From Cytidiella melzeri (Eukaryota > Basidiomycota > Agaricomycetes > Polyporales > Irpicaceae): a DNA stretch of 64,000 nucleotides. A program made the position numbers and the translations under genes. Of this stretch, positions 42,801 to 62,114 are shown in pieces. Location: assembly GCA_022592445.1 (NCBI GenBank), contig JABYQR010000121.1:51679-115678 (forward strand), in the 5' to 3' direction. Numbering within the stretch: position 1 is the first letter of the stretch; each line of letters opens with the position of its first letter. A model generated the notes under the pieces. It was not told the origin of the DNA and searched no databases. It saw only the letters and a list, made by a program, of their open reading frames with translations.

Positions 42801-43606
42801 TGACCTCCGTGGTCATTACAAGGCAGGTTGCTGAAGGGTTTATGGTTACGTCGCCAGTCATGAGCCCGACATCGCCAAACTCTGCGAGCATCTCACGGTA
42901 CTTTTGGTTGCTCAAGGCCTGAAAGATGTAAATTCAATGCACTGACTACACGTGATGTTCGCTAACTACTGGCCTTTATTGGACTTGTGTAGATTACACG
43001 CTGCTTGTTCTGCAAACATTGTGCGATGGCATACTCAGCTACCACAGTCTTACCCGCACTCGTGTGTGCAGAAACAAGTACGCTTTCGTTGCGCTGAATA
43101 GCATGGACTGAAACTTCTTGGAAGGGGTCCAAAGTGAATTTATATTCGCGAGCCGGTTTCGCTGGAGGTACATGTTTCGATATGGGGACGTAGGGGTAAC
43201 CTGGTGGCACCGCAACTTGATGTCGCACCTAAATCATGTTAGTTTGACCGTCGCTCTGGAAAATAAAGATGCGCACCTGATGCTTCAACTCGAGTCGGGC
43301 ACCTGCTTCTATTGCGCCTTGCAGACCTGCACTGGCTGCCACCTCGCGCTTCGCTTCAAACTCAACTTCATCCACAACCAGAGGTGCCGGCGGGGACTCA
43401 ATACGTTGCCTTTTGGAAACAGATGGCCCTGCCTCGTTGTCTGTGTGTTGCTGAGCACCGTTCGTATAAACATCTTCTGTGTCTTCAGCATTCGCCCTGC
43501 GTTTCCTCAGCACTTCAGGTCGTGCGTCCACCTCGATAGAGTCACCAACGTTGTCCAAGTCTTCGGGTCCCTGAGTCAAGAAAGAGAACAGGTCATGAGA
43601 GTCCAT
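39861..43606 (-). CDS. mtr4: Mtr4 exosome RNA helicase
   Basis: The Ski2-like DExH helicase that unwinds RNA for the nuclear exosome as part of TRAMP-type complexes. It starts [19 protein letters not shown] at 43606. Helicase motifs: [103 protein letters not shown] and [15 protein letters not shown]. The arch/KOW insert begins near [19 protein letters not shown]. The C-terminal DSH domain ends [17 protein letters not shown] at 39861, the expected Mtr4 end. About 1,070 residues with several introns. A DNA transposon is inserted 115 bp upstream of the start codon. Confidence 0.96.
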
Positions 43607-43635: not shown

Positions 43636-43720
43636 TACACTCCTAAGCGAATGCGATGTCGGGCGGATATGAGCGCGGGGTATGTCGTCGCGGCGACGAA
43701 AGAAGGGAATGTGGCGGTTT
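43636..43720 (+). repeat. Left part of tandem-duplicated host unit (copy 1)
   Basis: These 85 bp match 49862-49946 with two mismatches. Both begin TACACTCC and end GTGGCGGTTT. Copy 1 is broken at 43720 by the DNA transposon and resumes after it at 49648. The final CGGTTT is the left target-site duplication. Confidence 0.9.
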
Positions 43721-43770
43721 TATGCCGTCGGAACTGTACATTAAATAAAAATGCGTCGCGCGCCCGAATG
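43721..43770 (+). repeat. Left terminal inverted repeat
   Basis: Starts TATGCCGTCG, then shares TGTACATTAAATAAA and ATGCGTCGCGCGCC with the reverse complement of the right end, with a few mismatches and one small indel. Confidence 0.9.
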
Positions 43771-44085
43771 TGACCCCCGCGCGTCAATAGAAGGACCACT
43801 TTACACTGTCGTTTATGTCGCGCGTCGATAGCGTTGTTTGTCCAAGTGAGAAATCAAGGATGCATTCCGAGGGTGTGTATACTGAGTACGTACTATGAGT
43901 CCGTGGCTCGAAAAGTACTATTACACTCGAAAGGATCGGGGAATCATTAAGACCTGAAGTAGGAAATACCATATCAATCAAGCATTAAAGATGTGATAGA
44001 AGGGCAAACGAGTGACAATATCAGTAGTCCGTGTCAGGGGAGTGCAAAAGGAGAGAAAGTAAGTGTAGTGAAAAAGAATGTATAC

Positions 44086-45916
44086 TCAATTTGCCCAAGG
44101 ATCTGACATGTCGGAAGGTCGCTCCCACCTGCCCGGCGAATGATGGAGAGGCATGTTCGATGACCACGTCGCTAAGGCTGCATGGGTAGAAGGTGTCGAA
44201 GGTCCTGCAATAGGCGGAGGCGGAGGCTGCGATAGAGGCAAGGACGGACTGCCGTGCCTGATCCCGCTGGTCGACGCTTCCGAAAACGATGGCTGCGTTA
44301 CAAATGATGTTGGCCTGCTAGTGTCCGTCGTGTCTCCAAACCCAAAGGCTGAGTTGACCGGGAAAAGCGGCTCAAAGCTTGTTGGCATTGTCGGACTCGG
44401 AGTTGGGCTGGGAGTGCGGCTGAATACTGGTGCGTTCTTGAACCTGTACGTTGGCCCGTTCGAAGTCTTGTTCGGCTTTGGAGGTGTTTGCGATTTTGTG
44501 TCTTTGCGCTTGATTGCAATTGGCTTGGGGCGAGTCATCTCAATCGGCTCGGTCTTTACCTTTGCAATGGCAGGCAGCTTGGCCACTAGCTCGAGAATCA
44601 GCGTATAGATTCAAAACGGTAAGCACGAAAGGACATACAAGCTCTGTCAAGCCGGCCCAATAGTGAGTTTCCCTTTCCTCCATTCGCAAGCCCTGATATG
44701 CAGTTAGTACGCCGTTATGAGGGTTTGACTCGGACTCTGAGAAAAGTAGTGCCTGGGCAACAGCAACTCACTCGGTGCCTTCAGTGGGCCTTCCACAATC
44801 TCAACCTCACTCTCCTGATCGCTGTCAGCCTCCATGGCTCGCTTTTTCCCTTTCGAGGCGTTCGCGAACGGCGGTGATGCACCAGACAATGACTTCAAAC
44901 TCTTGCGGGTGGTCTGATTGGACAGAATATTGCCGCTGTTGTCCTCGCCATCGCTCAGGCTGTGCAACGGTTTGGAGGGCAGCCATGAGGTACGACGGAG
45001 TACATCAGCAGGCACAGGCTCTATCGAGGCTGGTATGTAGCAACTGAGTTTGGACATGACAGTAAGCATTACCACAGTTGCGCGCACCTATATGAATGAA
45101 GCTCTCTGACTTCCCTCGTCCCTTCCGACTCTTCACCCCATATAACTGCTCTCCAGTCGGCTCTGCTGATGTGTGCACGCACAACTTCCGAGACTCTGGG
45201 TAGCAAAGTACATAGGCCCCACGACCGTCAGCATGATCTCCTTGCCCTTTGAGGTACTCAAAGAATCCCGGCAGCGCATTCTGAAGTGCTCGATGAACAC
45301 GCGCAGAGCTCCAGGCCCGGTCAAATGCCACGTTGAACTTGACTTGCCCCTCTTGCTCGAGCTCGTGCAGCAGGCCATCATTGGTGAGCGGACGAATAGG
45401 CTCATCAAAGATGTACCGCCCGCTCTCCTCCTATGTGGTAGATCACGAAAAGGTTAGTAGTACTCAAAATATCAGGATGAAAATCATACTCAGACTTACG
45501 TCCATGCTGATACAACCCTGCGTGTACAATACGACTGCCCGAACTTCAAAAACCGTAGAAGACCCCTGCTGAGAAGCTGACGAACTTGCTTTCTCGCGGC
45601 TGGATTTGTGTAACTTCAAGCCATATCGGAATACAAGTCGGTATGTCAGCATTTCTTAGAATTGAGATTTAGTGCTGATGCGTACCTTTGGCTTTCTTTT
45701 CATTGAAGCAACCACCTTTCGAGCTTTTGCGGTCAGTCCTGCATTCGCTTCTCTGTCAGCTGCGTAGAGTGCTGATTTTGACACCTGGACCGCGTGCATC
45801 CCCGAGAGTGAGTTGATTGCTGCTTTGAGCTGGATCTGACGTGCGTTTGTCACAGAATTTGAGTCTTCTGCATCCGAAGCACTGGCAGAGCCCTGCTCAG
45901 CCTCGCTCGACGACAT
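44086..45916 (-). CDS. Transposon-borne accessory protein, unknown
   Basis: Starts MSSSEAEQGSASASDAEDSN at 45916. A lysine-rich helix (ARKVVASMKRKPK) and a middle domain follow, with FDEPIRPLTNDGLLHELEQ, then VKFNVAFDRAWSSARVHRAL and FFEYLKGQG, then GVKSRKGRGKSESFIHIG. This block resembles, from memory only, a domain of unknown function common in agaricomycete hypothetical proteins next to transposases. The C-terminal half is Ser/Pro/Lys rich, with LAKLPAIAK-type helices upstream of a disordered tail ending DPWAN at 44086. About six introns. It lies wholly inside the transposon, so it may be a second element protein rather than a host gene. No activity can be assigned. Confidence 0.65.
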
Positions 45917-46141
45917 GGCAGAAGCAAAAAGAGAAAGAAGATGTCAAATTTGCTATGTACACTGAGGCTTTTATCTCGCACGCCGCTGCATTAACATCAC
46001 AATATCCCTGTGGGCCTCACCATTGGTTGTTGATCACTAGTACTGAGTTACATCAAACTGCAGAGCCTCGAGGCCTTGTAGCTCAGGCACATGTACTAGT
46101 AGTAAGAGGGGTAACTTGCGTGAAAACATGATTTATATTTG

Positions 46142-48179
46142 CTACTCTGCTAGTTGTACAAGTAGTTCTACAGCACGAGCCCAGAGCTCTGCACGAGGCC
46201 GCCAAATATTTTCAGCTAAGCTGACGGTAATCTCTCGGCGACCTCGGCGACCCGAGCGAAGTACCTCGAGTGTTGGGTATGTATTGTCTTCCCACTCATC
46301 GGGCAGTAGGCCATAACCGCCGGGTACTACTTGGCTATCCTGAATGATTACCAGTGCTGCTCGGAACACCTGCTCACTTTCACGTGTAGCAAATGGAGTC
46401 TCACTTTCAGGAACATCGACAGCCTCGTGGTTGAAGTTGTGGCCGTGATTCTGCTCAACTGCTGCTTCTAGCTGAGTGATACCTGGGCGAGGGCTGTCGG
46501 GGTTGTCATCATCTGTGTCTTCATCAGATGGATGTCCAGCTCCAGTTTGGCCTGGTGTACGATGAGTCAATCTTCCGTGAACTCCGTAGTACTTGGCAAT
46601 GATATCTGGATGTACGTTGGTGAGGTCATCAATGTACACCCCGTGCTTGGTCTGGCCAATGAATCTTAAATCCTATCATATTAAGTGGTGGGTGTAAGGT
46701 TGAGCACACATAAAGAAAACCTATCATTGACATACATTAGGACTTCGATGACCTGCAATGCCAGACAGAGGCTTTGCATTCCAGTCAGCACAGAACTGAT
46801 CACAGTCATCATTGATCATGTCAAGAAATAGGAAGTGAAGAAGCCACATGTGCCGAGGGTCCTCAATGTTGAGGTGATGAAGACGTTCTAGACGGGAGAA
46901 GAAAGCTCGCCAACGGCGGGCAAACTGTGATCCTACTTCAACCCACAGGCGCTCAATGCGGGTGTTATGAGTGGATCTATCATAGCATCATAAGACCTAG
47001 CACACTTATTGACAGTTGATATGAGACTCACGATCCCCAGATGAATGAGCCACGGTTGGCCCCACGAAGTAGGATCATCAGTACGGCGACATCTTTATTT
47101 TCGCCGCCACGGTCTCCGCGTACACGAGACGGAAGGCCCCATGTATTTGCTGCGCAAACAAAAAGCTCTTGAACGGTAGAAGCTTTATTGTTCGTGCTTG
47201 CTCGCATCATGACTGCCTGGCAATGTGTATAAGTACTAATAGCTGTAACTAGAGTTATTAAAGTACACACTGTGCGGTCATAACCGTCAGCGCCCCCATG
47301 AATGACAATCCCCCATCGAATTAACTTATGATGACCATCAATATGCCACAAAGCGTTTGGTCGTGGAACCTGATACTGACGTCGTCGGATCGAAGGCCGT
47401 TGAGTATGTAGTATATGACCAACGGGGTCAACACGCTTAATAGATGCGACTACACGCTCCTGCTGTACACGGTATCCCTTCTGGCGTAGAAAGCCTATGA
47501 GGTAGCGTATGCCAGACTCCGGGCGGGCACTGCGGAATGCCTTGACTAACCTATCGAGGTCAGCGTCGGATATAGGTGTGAAAGCGTAATCAATGCGATA
47601 GCGGCGAAGAGATTGTCGTAGCGTATGTCGATGAACACCAACCATGCGAGCCAGTTGGGATACAGTGATTCGTCGAGAAGGGGACATGGCAGCATGAAGG
47701 TATGCTCTATTAATGATCTTCCGAGGCCGACCACGGCGACCCGATGCAGCAACATGCACCGGTTGGATAGCAGCAATGTCAAGTGTCTCTCTGACATCAT
47801 ATTGTTTGATTAGTTTGGGCTTTTATAGCACTGGAGCGGTCAAGAACAATACATACCGTCCACAAGCGGTTGCATGCATCTCCTTAAGCTGACTTCCGAG
47901 CTCACTCACAGCTTCTACACATGCAATAAGCCACTCCTCGGAAAGGCCTTCAATGTGTGCAATCCGGGCAAGCGCAAGGAGCAGCGGGCAGACGTCGTCG
48001 ACAAGAGTATTGAGATGGACCTTGACACGTAAGGGATCCATGTCTGCCTGTCGAAGAACTTGAAATGCTCTAGTGTACGCTGTTCCGATAATCTCACAGG
48101 CAGCGTGGATATTTGCTGCCCATGCTTCTCCATTGTCTCGGTCGGGCAATCGTGGAAGAGTATCCGTTAGAGACGACAT
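46142..48179 (-). CDS. DDE integrase-like transposase (IS3EU type)
   Basis: Starts [20 protein letters not shown] at 48179. A helical N-terminal region and one intron lead to [15 protein letters not shown] and a helix-turn-helix ([20 protein letters not shown]). The integrase-fold core follows: first Asp in [19 protein letters not shown], second Asp in [12 protein letters not shown] and the Glu in [12 protein letters not shown] after an intron, a DDE triad. The C-terminal domain ([20 protein letters not shown], then [19 protein letters not shown]) ends VELLVQLAE at 46142. About 570 residues. All catalytic residues are present and no stop was seen, so activity is possible. It is the presumed mobiliser of the surrounding 5.9-kb element. 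Confidence 0.87.
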
Positions 48180-48374
48180 GCTTACAAAACAGTATGTAGG
48201 GTGTGTGAGTGATGAACGGCGTGAAGACAACAACATTTGCTTACTTGGATTATCGATCATTTTTGAGTTGGGCACGCGCCTACGCCAATTGTACGCCTTC
48301 GCCGTCTCCCTCTCTCTCGGAGCCACTCATCATACTCTGCTGGATATCACGAATCAGCATTTCCTCCCGAGAAA

Positions 48375-49365
48375 ATGGAAAATCAGCGCTGCAATGGCAA
48401 ATATACCAAGAGTCCCGATTTCTGCTTTAACGATGGCACAATCTGGATCCGCGTGAGTACATACCTTGTCTAGCTGTTGCTGCGCACTGAGCTCTCATTG
48501 TGTCACTTGGATGCACAGGTGGAAAGGACACTGTATTGCCTCCACCGTGGTATCCTGGAATCCCATTCGGAGACATTCGCGCAGATTTTGCCCATGAGAG
48601 GAACTGGAGGGGATAAAGAGGACAACCCTGTCTTCCTCGAGTCGATCACAAGCGCAGACTTCGACTATTTGGTCAGGCATATATTCATAGGGTGAGTGCA
48701 CATCTTTCCTTGATGCTTGACAACTCACCTAATACGCATGCTGAAGATGGGTGGCACCTCCGCCGTATGACACTGCAATGCTGATCAGTCTCCTTAAGCT
48801 GGGCAGTCTGTATCAGATGAAACTGGTGCTCACTTTTGCCCAATACCATATCAAAGACGAGCCACGCATATCCCCAGCCACGAAGATTAACCTCGCACGT
48901 CGGTATACCATCCCAGATTGGGTCCGGCCAGCCTTCGAAGCACTAGTTCGCACGGGCCCGCTGCATATCACGGACGAAGATATAGATCAGCTAGGTCTTG
49001 TTACATATGCTATACTTACCAGGGCGCAGGCTGAAATTGCGAGAGAGCGACTGCGGCTGTCTCTTGCAGCTCCGCCTACTGTGCTTGGGGATGGCTGTGT
49101 TGCACATGACCGCTGCGAAGGTGCTTGGAAGGAGTTCTGGGGAATCAAGGTTTCCCGTTGGTTAAATCACCCGGACAAGCCTCCTCGACTGTCAAAGACC
49201 TGCGAGTTTATTGAACAGCTCGGTGATATTCCGTTCATGAGGAGCCGGTGCCATTCGGAAACACTGTTGAAGCTTCGGGGAATGGCGCCGTTGAGAGCGG
49301 AGGAGCGGATCACTGAAGAGGGAGTTGAGAAGGTACTTGCATTTCATCGGTTGTTAGAGCTGTAA
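48375..49365 (+). CDS. BTB/POZ domain protein carried by the transposon
   Basis: Starts MENQRCNGKYTKSPDFCFND at 48375; splicing after GTIWIR (GTGAGT donor) gives VERTLYCLHRGILESHSETF, the BTB core with the typical HR...L.S.S..F pattern. A second intron joins HIFIG to WVAPPPYDTAM. The tail is helical (LLKLGSLYQMKLVLTFAQYH, then INLARRYTIPDWVRPAFEAL), as in the many BTB proteins of agaricomycetes, and ends FHRLLEL at 49365. About 290 residues. BTB proteins often act as cullin-3 adaptors. It starts 195 bp from the divergent transposase start, and lies inside the inverted repeats, so it looks like captured cargo. Confidence 0.82.
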
Positions 49366-49589
49366 TACGAAGTAGTAGTCCTCATCCACGAAATATGTTC
49401 ACATGGCTATTTGGCGGTGGTGACTAAAAGTTTTCATTTTCTCCCCATGCAAGCACACAGGTTACGATAAAATAAACAGGTGTCTCTGTAAGCCTTGTTA
49501 TGAAGTTCTTGCACACTCATATTGCTTTTGAAAACCGTCGCGGCCGTAATATATGCGAAGTTGGGGAATGTGGCCTCAGCGCCTATGTA

Positions 49590-49641
49590 CATTCGCGCGG
49601 CGCGCGACGCATTTTATTTAATGTACAATTTCGACGGCATA
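49590..49641 (-). repeat. Right terminal inverted repeat
   Basis: Reverse complement begins TATGCCGTCG and pairs with the left end. Immediately followed by CGGTTT (49642-49647), the right copy of the target duplication. Confidence 0.9.
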
Positions 49642-49861
49642 CGGTTTGAGGGATGGGCGTGCGACGAAAAAAATATCACTGAGATGGGTGTGAAACACCG
49701 CTCCGACAACCAGCCCATCATATAATCTGTCTATAGCCAGTTTATCTAGACCAGCAATAATGGACATCGAGCGTACATAATTATCATTATATGCACAGTT
49801 CAACTATCTGACCACCATGTTATGTGTGATTGAACATGCACAGTGCGAGCAGACTTGACGT
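49642..49861 (+). repeat. Remainder of tandem unit copy 1
   Basis: Continues copy 1 after the transposon, starting CGGTTTGAGGGATGGG. Shares GACAACCAGCCCATCATATA and TCTGTCTATAGCCAGTTTAT with copy 2, at about 95% by eye. Removing the element and one CGGTTT gives a unit of 299 bp. It also has an extra segment of about 45 bp (about 49797-49841) absent from copy 2. Confidence 0.85.
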
Positions 49862-50111
49862 TACACTCCCAAGCGAATGCGATGTCGGGCGGATATGAGC
49901 GCGGGGTATGTCGTCGCGGCGACGAAAGGAGGGAATGTGGCGGTTTGAGGGATGGGCGTGCGACGAAAAAAATAAATATCACTGAGATCGGTGTGAAACG
50001 TCGCTCCGACAACCAGCCCATCATATAATCTGTCTATAGCCAGTTTATCTGGACCAGAAATAATGGACATCCAGCGTACATAATTATCAGGATATGCACA
50101 GTGCGAGCAGA
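49862..50111 (+). repeat. Tandem unit copy 2, the uninterrupted (empty) site
   Basis: Runs from TACACTCC through GTGGCGGTTTGAGGGATGGG, without the transposon, to GCACAGTGCGAGCAGA. It preserves the arrangement expected before insertion and so fixes the transposon ends to the base. Confidence 0.88.
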
Positions 50112-51330: not shown

Positions 51331-54300
51331 ATGTCTGCAAACACTTCAGCTTACAGCTTAGACCCTGCAGGTACGTACACAGGGATTGCTCTGGTTCTCT
51401 ATGTACACTAACACCTTCTATGCAGTGTGGTCTTTAGGCGATAAGGACCAAGTGACATGCTTGTTGTGTCCAAGCTTGACTTCTGGTCTTCCACTCACAA
51501 TTGCACGCCGCTACGCTCAGGGCCACGAATCTACAGCTCGGCATCAGCAGCGCCTCCAGTACCGTCGGCAGCTACAAGAGGCCAACCTTGAGCGCTCCAA
51601 GCTGCAAGAAGCAGAAGTGCAGAGGCAAGAAATGCAAGGCATTGAAGAGTCTCCAGACACATCTCAGGATGAAGCGCGTCTGGTGGACATGTCTCATGAT
51701 CCAGTTCCATTCAGTGAGCTCTGGCAACTCCAGGATCGTGAGCACAGTGTGGGGGTATTAGAGGTTGATGAAGAGGAGGAGGAGTATGCTGCCGAAAATG
51801 CCAAGCGCGATGAGATGTTGGATCCAGAGTATGAGCTGTTTGAGGATGACATGCAAGATGAGCATGCTGGGCAGGAGACCATAGGCATAGGTGAGTTGTC
51901 CTACCTGGGTATGAAGAATTGCATGATTTGAAAGTCCCGCTAACAATCTATCATAGGTATACCAGAGTTCTCACACTCCAGTCAGCCATCTGCTCAGGAT
52001 TCATTGTTCTCTCCATGGCCGTCCAAGTCAGTAAGTATAAGTAGGGTCCTACAGTCAGATAGCTACTTATCTTCATCAGCTCTTTCTCACAGACCTCTTG
52101 CTAACGTCTCCACGTCTGCGGTTCTCGGATGCACAAATCAGTGCAATGCTCAGATGGGCCAAGGCGTTACATGCACGTGACGTTCCAACCTTGTATGCTA
52201 TCAAGAAAATGCGCCAGGACCTCCGTCGTCTGGTTGGAGATCCCACAAAGAAAGTTGTAAGTCCTAGCGGCAATATCTTCTACATCAATGATATTGGGGC
52301 TGCGGTTGCAAAGGTATGGTTGTATATCTTGTAATCAAATTTCAATCTGAACCTGTTTTAGGATTACGCAAATCCTTTGACTCGATTTGCAATGTCCGAC
52401 TTTCCTGAAGACCGTGGAGGGCATATGTCTGAAGCACAGCATGGTTTCAAGATGCTTCGTGATGGCCCTGAAGGCATTGTCACCCCTGCTGTAAGGGTTG
52501 AAGGGAAGATCTTTTTCACTCAGGAGCTGCTTCAGCGATCCGACGCGTCTTATTTTATACCGGAGCGGTTCTTTGTGGATCGTTGTAGTTCACGACGAGA
52601 CGCAATCCCAACTGCTGGAGGCACACCAGAGACACTTACAGCATTAGGCCGTAGCGTTTCTTGGACTGAGGTAAGGTACATCTTCAATTGGTTGTATTTT
52701 TTCTCACTGGTTGATTAAATATAGGGTGGTTTTGTTGTGAGCAACCAACAGATGCTATGTCCTGTGGCTACCTTCAAGGTTCCCTTCGACAAATTGTATG
52801 GGTCATATCCTGAACATGTCCAGCTGTTCTCTGGTATGTCTCAATAAACCCACTTAGTGACTTTCTCACTTAACTTAATTTTCACAGATGAGTCTCGGAA
52901 ATACGCCGAAAAAATGCCAAATCCCATTCGACAACTTGCCAAGGGCAGGATGTGCTACGCTGTCCCAGTCATCGTGTTCATCGATGATGTTTCTGGCAAT
53001 GTTTCAAAGCAGTGGAACAAGCATCATGTTGTCTACGCCTCTAACGCAAACTTGCCACGGGAGATGATAGAAAAGGAATTCTCGGTCAAGTTTGTCTCAT
53101 CGTCACCACATGCGTCTCCAATAGAGCTTGCAAAGGCTGTCTGTGACTCCATAAAGTAAGTACAGTCCTGAATTCTGCTGCAGAAAAATTATACTGGTAC
53201 TTTTTACTCACTTCTCAAATAGTTCAGCAGCTCAGAATGGTGTTGAGGCCTGGGACTGCAAGTATGACGAAGAGGTTTTGTTGCTTCCATATGGCTTCTT
53301 TTTTGGTGGCGACAATCCAATGCAAGCAGAGGAATGCAGTCACAACGGGCTTGGTTGTAATCTCTTTTGCCGAACTTGCAAAGTTGGTGGTACCAAAGCT
53401 CATAAAGCCTCAGAAGAAGGCTTTCTTGAGCTATTCTCTGTATGTTTCTTTCTATTTTCTTTTTCAAGAGTCAAGGTTGGGAACCTGATTTTTTGTGCTA
53501 CTGTAGGAAGGCCCACTTCGAACACCACATGAAACAGACGCAGAAATTCGAAGACAGCTCAGCATGTCTGTTCTCCCTGGAGCTCAGAGCAAGGTTGACA
53601 GCGCACGTCAGGCCACTGGTGTTTGGGACTCAGGACTTCACAGCATCATTCATACCTTGATTGAGATGGGTAAACAGCTTCGGAAGGCACGGCCAGACAA
53701 TTCCCAGGCATCTGAGGATGCAATACGAAAGCAGCTTGAGACAGAGCTAGATCGCCTACTTCAGCCACATTCCGTGGATGACTGGATTAACCCATTGCTT
53801 GGACTAGCCGGTCAGTTTCCACAATATTCATGTTACCATTGATCTCATATATCATTCAAGGAGTTAACATTCACATGGATACACCTACTGAGATACTACA
53901 CACAGTGCTGCTAGGTGTTGTCAAATACTTCTGGGGCCAGACTGTTCATATCATCGAAAAAGCAAAGTCGCTTGCTTTACTTGAAGCACGAATGGAGTCA
54001 CTCGCGGTGCATGGCCTCAATCTCCCTGCGTTTGTTCCAGCATACATCTGCCATTACCGTGGGGGTCTTATTGGAAAGCATTTCAAGAGCCTTGCTCAAG
54101 TAATGCCATTCCTCATTCATGACCTAGTTCCTCAGGATGTACTTGATGGATGGAATGTGATTGGAGAACTGGTTGTTCTTCTCTGGCATACAAGTATTGA
54201 GGACCGAGAAGTATACTTGGCATGTTTCATTTTATTTTATGGTGTTGCAATATCTCATTGCTGCTGTAGGCCCATCTATCTAGGACCATTCAAGACCTTC

Positions 54301-56271
54301 TCAATATCACTGCAAAATGTGCACCGAGCATTCTCATCACCAAGCCAAAATTCCACTTCCTAGTCCATCTTCCAGCATACATCCGCCGTTTTGGCCCTGC
54401 CATTCTCTTTTCAACAGAACGCTATGAGAGCTTCAACCACGTATTCCGGCTTTCATGCATCCACAGCAATCGGCAATCACCCAGTCACGACTCCTGTAAG
54501 ACCTTTGCTGCACAGGACGCTGTCAAGCATGTGGCCCTTGGTGGATTCTGGTATGATGCCGAGAAGAAGACTTGGAGATCTGCAGGTCATGGAGTCCGGG
54601 ACTACATGAGGGATCATCCAGAAGAGAAAGCACACCTGGGTTATAAAGAAACCAAGCCTGTTATTTCTGGTATGATTCTGAAGATGCTACACTATCTCTG
54701 TGACTATACTGATAATTATGCTAGGATCTGCACACCTACCCAAGTCACAGCAGAGACATTCGATGTCTGTTACATGGGCACAAACATACTCCTCAACAGT
54801 CACTAGCAGCTCACCCTCAGCTCAACTTGCTGCCCATGGACTGGACACACGACGCTACTTCAAGGTTGAGTCTATGACTCTCATCAACGGCGATAAAGCT
54901 GTCACTGGGAAAGATATTCTTGTTAAGTATGGTGATAATCAGGTGAGCTATCTTAGTTTTGGTAAATGTTTCACTATCATTGAATCTTCTCCTGCTCTTA
55001 GTACAAGTTTGCACGTGTTATTGAGATGCTGGTGCCACTGGAAAATGTCTCCCAAGTTTCTCACATCTCTGTTCAGCTGTTCAAGATAGAGGACACACGA
55101 CATGAGAAGCTTCGAGTCCCTCGACTGACCTTGACACAAGACACTGCCCTTCTCACACTCCAGGTATGTTAAACGCAATTGTACAGCTGTATGTGCTCAG
55201 TCAGGGATTATTGCAGGACATCATATGTGCAGTCAATACCCAGCACAATTGCACAGACTCAGACTCCCAATGCATAGGAGTGACATTGCATCCTACCCGG
55301 CAAGAACGCACCTTCACAGAGCATCGTACCAAGCAAATTGCTCAGCATGCAGAGACACCTCACTTCTTACTCAATATCTACTCAATTCACAACTACGAGC
55401 AGATTGCTAAAGCTCTTCCTTCATCGCTACGACGGGCTGAGCCAGTTATCCCTGACACAGCAGTTTGAGAAGTGCGGAAAGCAGCTGTGAAGCACATGGG
55501 AGCTCAAAAAGCTGCATCAAAAGCTGCACTTCCACCTTCCAGCACCACAAGGATCACCAGACCGATCACTCCAGCTGCGTTCAATGTGTCCAACGTCATG
55601 ACACAGCCTTTACCAGGTAAGCCCCTGTGCATGAAGGGTATATCCGCACACACACTAATGATCATGTTCATCACATGCAGACAGCAGGGCTGTGACTGCA
55701 CGACCATTTGAAACACCTCAACGGAGCTCGGTCAAACAAGGTGCAAAGCGCAAGGTAACAGAAATGGATGTGAGTATCAGTTCCTACAATTATTGTGCAT
55801 GTGCTCATTTTTTGTGGGCAGAAGGAAGCAGGCAGAGGTTTCCAAGCCAATCCAATTGCTTCCAGCTCTCAATCTCAAAATCGCGAGAGCAACACTGGCG
55901 TTGCATTTGCTGATTCACAATGGCAGCGTTCATTTTCTTGGCCAGCAGCACAGCCAGGTCCCCACATTCCTGAGTCTGGGCCACCCTTTCCACCTCCATT
56001 TGCGCCGCCGCAGTTCCTTTCACCATTCTCCCCACCCCCACCTCCATTTGCACCACCACCATTCCTTCCACCATTCTCCCCACACCCGACACATGCAAGA
56101 AACATGCAATCATCAATTCCGCCGCCGCCCCCATCCCACACAATCGACATTCCTGTTGCAGATCGCGATCCACCACACCCCTCAGCCGTGCCTCCTCAAT
56201 CTTTCAATCGCTTCTCGCGCTGGACCCGCGCGACGCCGTTTGGGCCCGAAAATGACTCTTCACACATGTAA
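51331..56271 (+). CDS. Large agaricomycete repeat-family protein, perhaps transposase-derived; in-frame TGA
   Basis: Starts MSANTSAYSLDPA at 51331; splicing gives VWSLGDKDQVTCLLC. It runs through about twelve exons. Segments include DLLLTSPRLRFSDAQISAML, VPVIVFIDDVSGNVSKQWNK, FFFGGDNPMQAEECSHNG, CNLFCRTCKVGG, MDTPTEILHTVLLGVVKYFW, RGGLIGKHFKSLAQVMPFLI and PKFHFLVHLPAYIRRFG. The order (Asp-containing core, CxxC pairs, an FNT-like motif near ILFSTERYESFNHVFR) recalls Plavaka/KDZ-type fungal transposases, from memory only. At 55466-55468 a TGA interrupts the frame, which continues open to a proline-rich end at 56271. So the gene either ends at the TGA or is a pseudogene. Exon edges are approximate. 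Confidence 0.7.
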
Positions 56272-60210: not shown

Positions 60211-61229
60211 CTCAGTTAAACTGCCTTTTGGCGTAACGGTTATGACGTTGGAGTTCAGATCGCTTACAATTGTGAATCTTAAAATTCCCCTTTTCCAGTA
60301 AAGCCCTTTTCATGCCTCTGTCAGGCTCTTTGTTTCTTCTGTTTGCACTGCTCACACACTGACACATGTTCCATAGTGTATCATGGTTACTTAGATGGTC
60401 TTTGGGACAGTCACCCTGTCTCTTTTGTGGTAAAGCTCTAGCCATACCTCTGCCCAATTATGTGATCCAATTTGAATTGTAACAACTACCCAGATTGTAC
60501 ACTCGTCTTTCTTCCCTCATTCCTTGTTTCCCATTGCCTCTGTTCAACACAGCCTATTACATTGATACAACCAGAAGTTGGCCAGGCCTGCAGGCTGACT
60601 CTATCACATGCAAATCAACTCTATCGCATGGACTCACTCAGTCCGGGAGTTCGAGTGAGTTTTACAAGGTATCAGTGAGAGTTTTGAGCATAAAGAGAGG
60701 AGACTGAGGTGGTGGTCAGACAAATAGATGGGGATCAAAAGTGGTAGTGTTGCATTGATCAGAGTAAGTCTTATATACAGTAACTACTGGCGCTACACAC
60801 GTGATCAATGCAGAGTCTCAATGTATTTGAACAGTGACAGGCTTTGGCAATGTTTATTGACCAAACCTCAGGAGCTTCAAACAACAATCTGAGGATTCAA
60901 GCAGGGTTTGTGTCCTGACCTCCAAAGGTGTTGTGACCTTCATTGCAAACGGCTCACATGACCACGACAGGCTGTGCCAGACCAAGCAACGGCAAAGAAC
61001 TGCAACAATGAAACATTCCTTGGTCCTGCGGCAAAACAGAGGTCTTGCTATGCAGCTCAATAAGGTCTTGAACATTGCTGACAACCTCCCAGAGATCCCG
61101 TACGTGGGCCATAACAACGGATACATCAAAAGGCAAGGTTGTGTGTGCTGCTAAGACCTAACAATGCTGTCAGATCTCTGAGTACTGTAACAGTTAAGGT
61201 TACTACTCACCAGATAAGTGTTAAACTTG
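60211..61229. other. Degenerate repeat DNA, no gene seen
   Basis: Only short frames. GCATTGATC and GATCAATGC form a 9-bp inverted pair around 60752 and 60806. A TGGACTCACTCAGTCCGGGA stretch at 60627-60646 can form a small hairpin. Confidence 0.35.
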
Positions 61230-61680
61230 AGGGGGAGATAATGAGATAGAGAGTAGGAGTTGTGTTGAGCGAAGTACTGGAGAGTACAGAGTAGTCCTTT
61301 ATCAACAGAGTGGATAAGACTGAGGGGATATGCCCTCAGGAGTGCCTCTATATATACATGAAGGGGAGGACCCCAGGTGCTACCTTAAGACCCCTAATAC
61401 CTACATGAGTAAGCGAAGTAATCTACCTTACTAAGCATGCCCTATGCCCTAGTGGTGCCACTTCAATAATCAACCAATAGCAATTGTCCCCATGACTTGA
61501 CCCCATGACCCAGCTCCAAGGCTAGACTTGTTCTAGCTTGTTCTAAGACAAGGCTAGACTTTTCCAGAAGGTTCTATGAACTATGACATCATCTAATGGA
61601 ATGTTCTAAACTATGACATCATAGTTCCAGCAAGTTCCACAATGTTCCAGAGAGTTCTATCATGTGATACACAGATAAGG
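61230..61680 (-). repeat. Probable LTR fragment with promoter
   Basis: A GAGGGGGAGA purine tract at 61231-61240 precedes TAATGAGATAGAGAGTAGG. TATATATA lies at 61352-61359, and downstream repeats of GTTCTA, AAGGCTAGACTT and CTATGACATCAT (61587 and 61611) look like retroelement regulatory DNA. It shares GTGGATA(A)GACTGAGG with 63501-63516. Element type and edges not determined. Confidence 0.4.
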
Positions 61681-61687
61681 AAAGGAG

Positions 61688-61735
61688 CGCATCAGCGCAT
61701 CAGAGACAGAAGGCGCATCAGCGCATCAATTGATA
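61688..61735 (+). repeat. GCGCATCA short tandem repeats
   Basis: Two pairs of GCGCATCA, as GCGCATCAGCGCATCA, separated by GAGACAGAAG-type sequence. Confidence 0.8.
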
Positions 61736-61746
61736 GGCACTGAGAA

Positions 61747-61837
61747 TAAGCACCGGAATAGGCGCCTGATAAGCGCCAGATAAGCGCTGGAAAAGCGCCT
61801 AAATAGACGCTGGATAAGCGCTTGACAAGCGCTTAAA
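61747..61837 (+). repeat. 11-bp tandem repeat, eight units
   Basis: Eight units of 11-12 bp following TAAGCGCYNGA (for example TAAGCGCCAGA, TAAGCGCTGGA, TAAGCGCTTGA). Each contains a palindromic core such as AGCGCT or GGCGCC. Confidence 0.85.
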
Positions 61838-62114
61838 TATTCCCAATAATACCGTTGCCTGGTAAGGCAAGTCTTGTAGAAACATTGAAAATCTGTGACA
61901 AGTACCTAAGACACAAGCGTTGAGCGAGTGAGTCCAAGGTGCAAAGGAAGAGAGCACGATGGGGGGAAAAGAGAGGAATGAGTGAACTCTTACAGTACAA
62001 TGAGAGACGGCTCAATAAGGAAATGATAATGCAGAAGGCTGTGTCTGCGGGAATGAGGCTACACTAACATGTGATTCATATAAAAAGAGAACAATGAAAA
62101 GAACAAGGTAACCT

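Follow-up and report, generated by a model that had tools for sequence, protein, structure and literature searches.

A 5,921-bp insertion was identified at positions 43721-49641 of a 64,000-nucleotide stretch of the genome of the wood-decay fungus Cytidiella melzeri (NCBI GenBank assembly GCA_022592445.1, contig JABYQR010000121.1, here C26:51679-115678), referred to as the window in the following. Our results indicated that this insertion is very probably a young, structurally complete, and potentially autonomous DNA transposon of the IS3EU type carrying three genes, and that the two extra genes probably serve the element itself. An earlier note on this DNA had described an IS3EU-like transposon encoding a DDE protein; in addition to this transposase, the element encodes a companion protein and a divergent protein with a BTB domain. 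The features recognized in the window are as follows:

43721-49641, no strand: complete IS3EU-type DNA transposon, defined by its terminal inverted repeats (TIRs), target-site duplication (TSD), and genomic copies with matching boundaries
43715-43720, no strand: left TSD, CGGTTT, from flank comparison
49642-49647, no strand: right TSD, CGGTTT, from flank comparison
43721-43771, plus strand: left TIR, 51 bp (TATGCCGTCGG...), 89% identical to the right arm
49589-49641, minus strand: right TIR, 53 bp, 89% identical to the left arm
46142-48179, minus strand: transposase gene, 599 amino acids (aa); modelled exons 48179-47857, 47790-47271, 47216-47032, 46976-46736, and 46672-46142; based on the gene model, Pfam rva_4, conserved splice sites, and the ratio of nonsynonymous to synonymous substitution rates (dN/dS)
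44086-45916, minus strand: companion gene, 499 aa, downstream of the transposase gene on the same strand, deposited as P0121; exons of the deposited structure 45916-45686, 45613-45500, 45430-45088, 45029-44772, 44692-44639, and 44585-44086
48375-49365, plus strand: BTB/POZ-domain gene, modelled here with 289 aa; exons 48375-48452, 48519-48691, and 48747-49365; based on Pfam BTB, the deposited form P0123, and dN/dS
49162-49641, no strand: right-end tract (last 480 bp), 96-98% identical to the copy on contig C297, other 250-column windows reaching 55-86%
49937-49951, plus strand: uninterrupted target sequence GTGGCGGTTTGAGGG, within the tandem paralogous unit 49862-50111 of the target repeat

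The element opens with TATGCC and closes with GGCATA, and its two arms paired in a genome-wide search with an E value of 1.8e-10. Inverted ends of about 50 bp and a flanking CGGTTT duplication had already been described in the earlier note, and both were found in place. The whole assembly, comprising 49,687,580 bases (49.7 Mb) in 731 contigs, was then searched for further copies. Close copies were detected at C179:3113-9033 (99.6% identity to the window copy), C501:80010-74131 (98.9%), and C568:25400-31306 (97.3%; the inner of two copies at this locus), together with a divergent full-length copy on C297 representing a second subfamily. The boundaries were the same in the other genomic copies, and TATGCC..GGCATA termini were present in all five copies with both ends in place. 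A 6-bp TSD was likewise found in five out of five copies with scorable flanks (CGGTTT in the window, GAAGCG on C179, AATATT on C501, GGGGAA for the inner C568 copy, and CCAGCC on C297), the outer C568 copy and an end on C727 being unscorable. Copies with deviating ends or duplications, which the earlier note had named as evidence against its proposal, were not encountered among the scorable ones. A scan of the assembly for this end pattern, allowing three mismatches at most, yielded 13 termini, compared with one for the pattern read backwards. These comprised both ends of the window, C179, C501, inner C568, and C297 copies, two ends of the outer C568 copy, and one solo end on C727, indicating that the family is small in this assembly. 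The solo left end (C727:42228-42593, L013) is approximately 366 bp long and belongs to the divergent subfamily, with 96% identity to C297.

The insertion point was established to the base. Aligning the joined flanks (43636-43720 plus 49648-49861), with a single CGGTTT, to the unit starting at 49862, as proposed in the earlier note, gave 94.2% identity over 241 columns with 10 mismatches and four gaps. The uninterrupted target was located in the adjacent tandem unit, as the note had said; its designation as the element's own empty site was overstated, because the target unit is a dispersed repeat, for whose 85-bp stretch 40 scored matches were obtained in the genome, two of them inside the window. 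GTGGCGGTTTGAGGG was uninterrupted in seven out of ten loci fetched, one being the second unit of the window itself, and was not intact at the insertion site (L029), in a divergent copy (L037), and in a copy with one mismatch (L038). The base-level proof of insertion claimed in the note therefore holds for the target sequence, through paralogous targets rather than through a preserved pre-insertion allele. The target repeat itself (43636-43720, 49648-49853, and from 49862 onwards) features a constant end, TACACTCCC, and a variable length, is 99% identical over 1.6 kb to three loci, and may represent the terminal part of a DNA transposon of the CACTC type. Open reading frames (ORFs) at 53791-54806 resemble, by eye, a Plavaka/KDZ-type transposase and are regarded as a candidate only.

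An unusual arrangement was observed at C568:18,553-31,406 (L039, L011, L045, and L046), where the 97% copy is inserted at GGGGAA within a divergent copy. The outer left end abuts GGGGAA ahead of the inner copy, and GGGGAATGTGG comes after the inner copy, while the outer body is inverted, with a related-looking end (TATGACGTTCC...) abutting TTCCCC-AAC of this body. Since a single target 6-mer occurs at three junctions, the arrangement is consistent with an insertion and a subsequent reversed-ends transposition at that site, with misassembly as an alternative.

The transposase matched the Pfam family rva_4 (PF24764) with an E value of 4.5e-61 and features the catalytic triad D259, D316, and E351, with D259 being the D of the motif WHID and 34 residues separating D316 and E351. 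An integrase fold was predicted for its homologue P0001 from Arthromyces matolae. The nearest prokaryotic NCBIfam models were IS481 (8e-11) and IS3 (1.1e-9), both with scores under the curated cut-offs, as expected of distant kin. TA..TA ends and usually 6-bp TSDs are given for IS3EU in the accessible text of Kojima 2023 (PMC10045372); these ends and this duplication length, a DDE integrase-type transposase, no HHCC-type zinc domain among the Pfam matches at E up to 1, and the likeness to IS3 and IS481 were all found here. The element thus fits IS3EU, assigned via published criteria rather than by comparison with Repbase sequences, and the IS3EU-like character and fitting DDE protein proposed in the earlier note are supported. 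Membership in IS481EU, Ginger1/2, or a separate rva_4 superfamily was considered, as IS481 scored slightly better than IS3, the assignment was made without Repbase sequences, and the tree in Kojima 2023, in the part available, left IS481EU unseparated from IS3EU/GingerRoot. IS481EU also shares the integrase-type DDE transposase; however, TSDs of approximately 4, 15, or 25 bp and TNT..AYA or TGT..ACA ends are described for it in the same text, in contrast to the 6 bp and TA..TA ends of all five copies. Likewise, Ginger1 possesses an HHCC domain and 4-bp TSDs and Ginger2 TSDs of 4 or 5 bp, the Cytidiella element agreeing with neither, so that a placement outside IS3EU appears very improbable.

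Distant rva_4-like ORFs (L040-L044 on C693, C130, C593, C545, and C257), being 29-57% identical to parts of the window transposase, reside in repeats of approximately 3.5 and 4.7 kb without recognizable TIRs. These paralogues were rejected as family members on account of missing clear TIRs and of the tail profile, which gave no match at E up to 1; the companion profile produced one match among them (E 0.96), none being convincing.

No Pfam family was found for the companion at E up to 1. An alpha-kinase, as expected from Kojima 2025 (PMC12730594), was rejected on this basis. Profile comparison revealed that the companion is homologous to the tails that follow this transposase in fused gene models of other Agaricomycetes; only this approach uncovered the relationship, the direct BLASTP comparison with the fused protein of Lanmaoa being not significant (E 0.077). 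Among the 13 listed homologues longer than 650 aa, 11 were read (without P0004 and P0078) and ten aligned; P0028, whose tail appears dissimilar, was omitted from the alignment, and the tail of the shorter protein P0083 likewise deviates. Structure prediction tentatively suggested a possible ubiquitin-like (beta-grasp) domain at approximately residues 97-242. The companion represents a protein family lacking a Pfam model. As members of this family are found repeatedly after the transposase in several genera of mushrooms, it may be a general part of such elements, and we regard it as the more interesting part of the present one.

The third gene is deposited as P0123 with 321 aa, its N-terminus being longer than in our 289-aa model, and matched Pfam PF00651 with an E value of 1.7e-4. 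Outside Cytidiella, the protein search returned only one protein, from Irpex rosettiformis (56% identity). Our searches of the main texts of open-licence PubMed Central (PMC) papers brought up no BTB gene in an IS3EU element.

Comparison of the window copy with C297 yielded dN/dS values of 0.094 for the transposase (synonymous divergence, dS, 1.08), 0.24 for the companion (dS 0.76), and 0.093 for the BTB gene (dS 1.11). The last value was computed up to position 49100, outside the homogenized right-end tract, which affected the whole-gene value of 0.12; the near-identity of this tract to C297 points to recombination or gene conversion between the subfamilies. Judged from these ratios, all three genes are under purifying selection between the two subfamilies, and the BTB gene has been carried since before their split. 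GT-AG was retained at 11 out of 11 introns in all five copies. The companion and BTB genes were open in all five aligned copies, and the transposase gene was open in the window and inner C568 copies, with one stop on C179 and a 41-nucleotide deletion on C501. These data bear on the explanation that the BTB and companion genes were captured by an IS3EU element as passive passengers, with no role in its life cycle. Such passengers would agree with the occurrence of other genes (TET/JBP and alpha-kinase) in fungal IS3EU elements, as presented in the part of PMC12730594 at hand, and with the restriction of the BTB protein to Cytidiella and Irpex in our search. However, low dN/dS values at high dS, the persistence of both reading frames although the C179 and C501 transposase genes are interrupted, and the finding of the companion behind the transposase in further Agaricomycetes make this explanation unlikely.

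Expressed as plain mismatch fractions, the window copy differed from C179 at 24 out of 5,921 positions (0.41%, 22 transitions) and from C501 at 26 out of 5,880 aligned bases (0.44%, 25 transitions), which supports the youth of the element suggested in the earlier note. CpG transitions accounted for 27 of the 41 private changes (3/4 in the window, 10/18 on C179, and 14/19 on C501), with only 22% of C+G residing in CpG; this excess suggests that the inserted copies were methylated. An immobile element whose copies only appear young through segmental duplication or assembly effects might be suspected in a draft assembly of 731 contigs in which the transposase is interrupted in two out of four close copies. 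This is hardly credible, since each copy has different flanks with its own 6-bp TSD, a pattern that segmental duplication does not generate, and since only four private substitutions were found in the window copy. The latter copy is intact, and the element was probably mobile in the recent past and is possibly still so; its three intact genes are compatible with the possible activity considered in the earlier note.

Our preferred explanation is the young three-gene IS3EU transposon, for which a cut-and-paste mode would follow from its family. The transposase would bind the 51- and 53-bp ends through its helix-turn-helix part and free them, and the DDE core would carry out strand transfer, joining the ends 6 bp apart in the target, with repair of the 6-nucleotide gaps yielding the TSDs. 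The observed basis of this scheme consists of the ends, the 6-bp duplications, the conserved triad, the predicted fold, and the intact genes, the chemistry being inferred. As the companion and BTB genes were kept by selection, both most likely work for the benefit of the element. The companion, which recurs with the transposase, is most likely a cofactor or regulator of transposition, and the BTB protein most likely an interaction partner that would make protein-protein contacts with the host.

Several points weigh against this explanation. The placement in IS3EU rests on described characteristics. The dN/dS values originate from a single pair of subfamilies that swap sequence, and the projected exons give no continuous transposase reading frame on C297, so that this divergent partner may itself have undergone decay. 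The BTB score (22.2 bits) is barely above the Pfam cut-off of 20.5, and the margin for this assignment is thin, as the Irpex homologue scores 14.3 bits and thus falls below the cut-off. Furthermore, a profile built from two Cytidiella companions finds the fused tails weakly (seven fused models, E 2e-4 to 0.08), and P0049 (E 0.72), P0013 (short; E 3), and P0100 (absent at E up to 10), which were counted among the tails from the multiple alignment by eye, were not convincing by this profile.

A broader and rather doubtful proposal is that Agaricomycete IS3EU elements are multi-component machines, in which the transposase would work together with an obligate companion with a new ubiquitin-like domain, joined by lineage-added, host-facing regulators such as the BTB protein. 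The latter, which by analogy with known BTB proteins might be a cullin-3 adaptor, would counter host silencing or repair as proposed for TET/JBP in other fungal IS3EU elements; the C568 inversion would then be due to the same transposase pairing ends of different copies.

Data from a single genome sufficed to date the extra genes to a time before the two subfamilies separated and to reveal selection on them. With one young copy being intact and its target sequences known, laboratory yeast could serve to test transposition and the requirement for the individual genes.

Concerning the neighbourhood, the element sits approximately 115 bp upstream of the apparent start codon (43604-43606) of a minus-strand gene extending leftwards, whose product by eye resembles an MTR4/SKI2-type helicase. 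A tandem array of 11-bp units (ATAAGCGC...) was observed at 61218-61900, including 61746-61834; this region shows an 83% match to L030, located next to a copy of the target repeat, and similar ATAAGCGCC units occur left of the C297 copy.

Among the systems available for comparison is that of Ganoderma, a genus of the Polyporales, the order to which Cytidiella also belongs. Its IS3EU-annotated repeats share the superfamily label, and the accessible text presents annotation counts only (PMC8955403). IS3EU is a minor eukaryotic superfamily; of its 45 families listed in Repbase in May 2022, according to the part of PMC10045372 at hand, 17 were autonomous. Genes other than the transposase are known from its fungal members. 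Related Agaricomycete rva_4 proteins, recorded as hypothetical or integrase-domain proteins and compared here at the protein level, include Arthromyces matolae P0001, which is 49% identical to the Cytidiella transposase across 99% of the latter, and several gene models of this family continue into the same companion. As far as the available descriptions go, the Cytidiella element shares with IS3EU the TA..TA termini, 6-bp TSD, TIRs longer than 30 bp, the IS3/IS481-related DDE transposase, and the extra genes of fungal members. The TET+ IS3EU elements of rust fungi likewise feature TIRs longer than 30 bp, but differ in their TAYGG..CCRTA ends and TET/JBP and alpha-kinase genes, as described in the accessible part of Kojima 2025 (PMC12730594), whose main text lacks the word BTB. 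The Cytidiella element possesses TATGCC..GGCATA ends, a BTB gene, and a Pfam-less companion, and no TET/JBP or alpha-kinase model matched its three proteins in Pfam at E up to 1, which places it outside the TET+ rust subgroup. Styx of Zymoseptoria, an ascomycete element, is described in the available text of PMC10853768 as IS3EU-like, with a 36-bp TIR, a 6-bp TSD, and four coding sequences, two of them known only from Zymoseptoria; new insertions were traced in a pedigree, and a non-replicative mechanism was suggested. Likened by description, Styx and the Cytidiella element are both fungal, IS3EU-like, flanked by 6-bp TSDs, and equipped with multiple genes.
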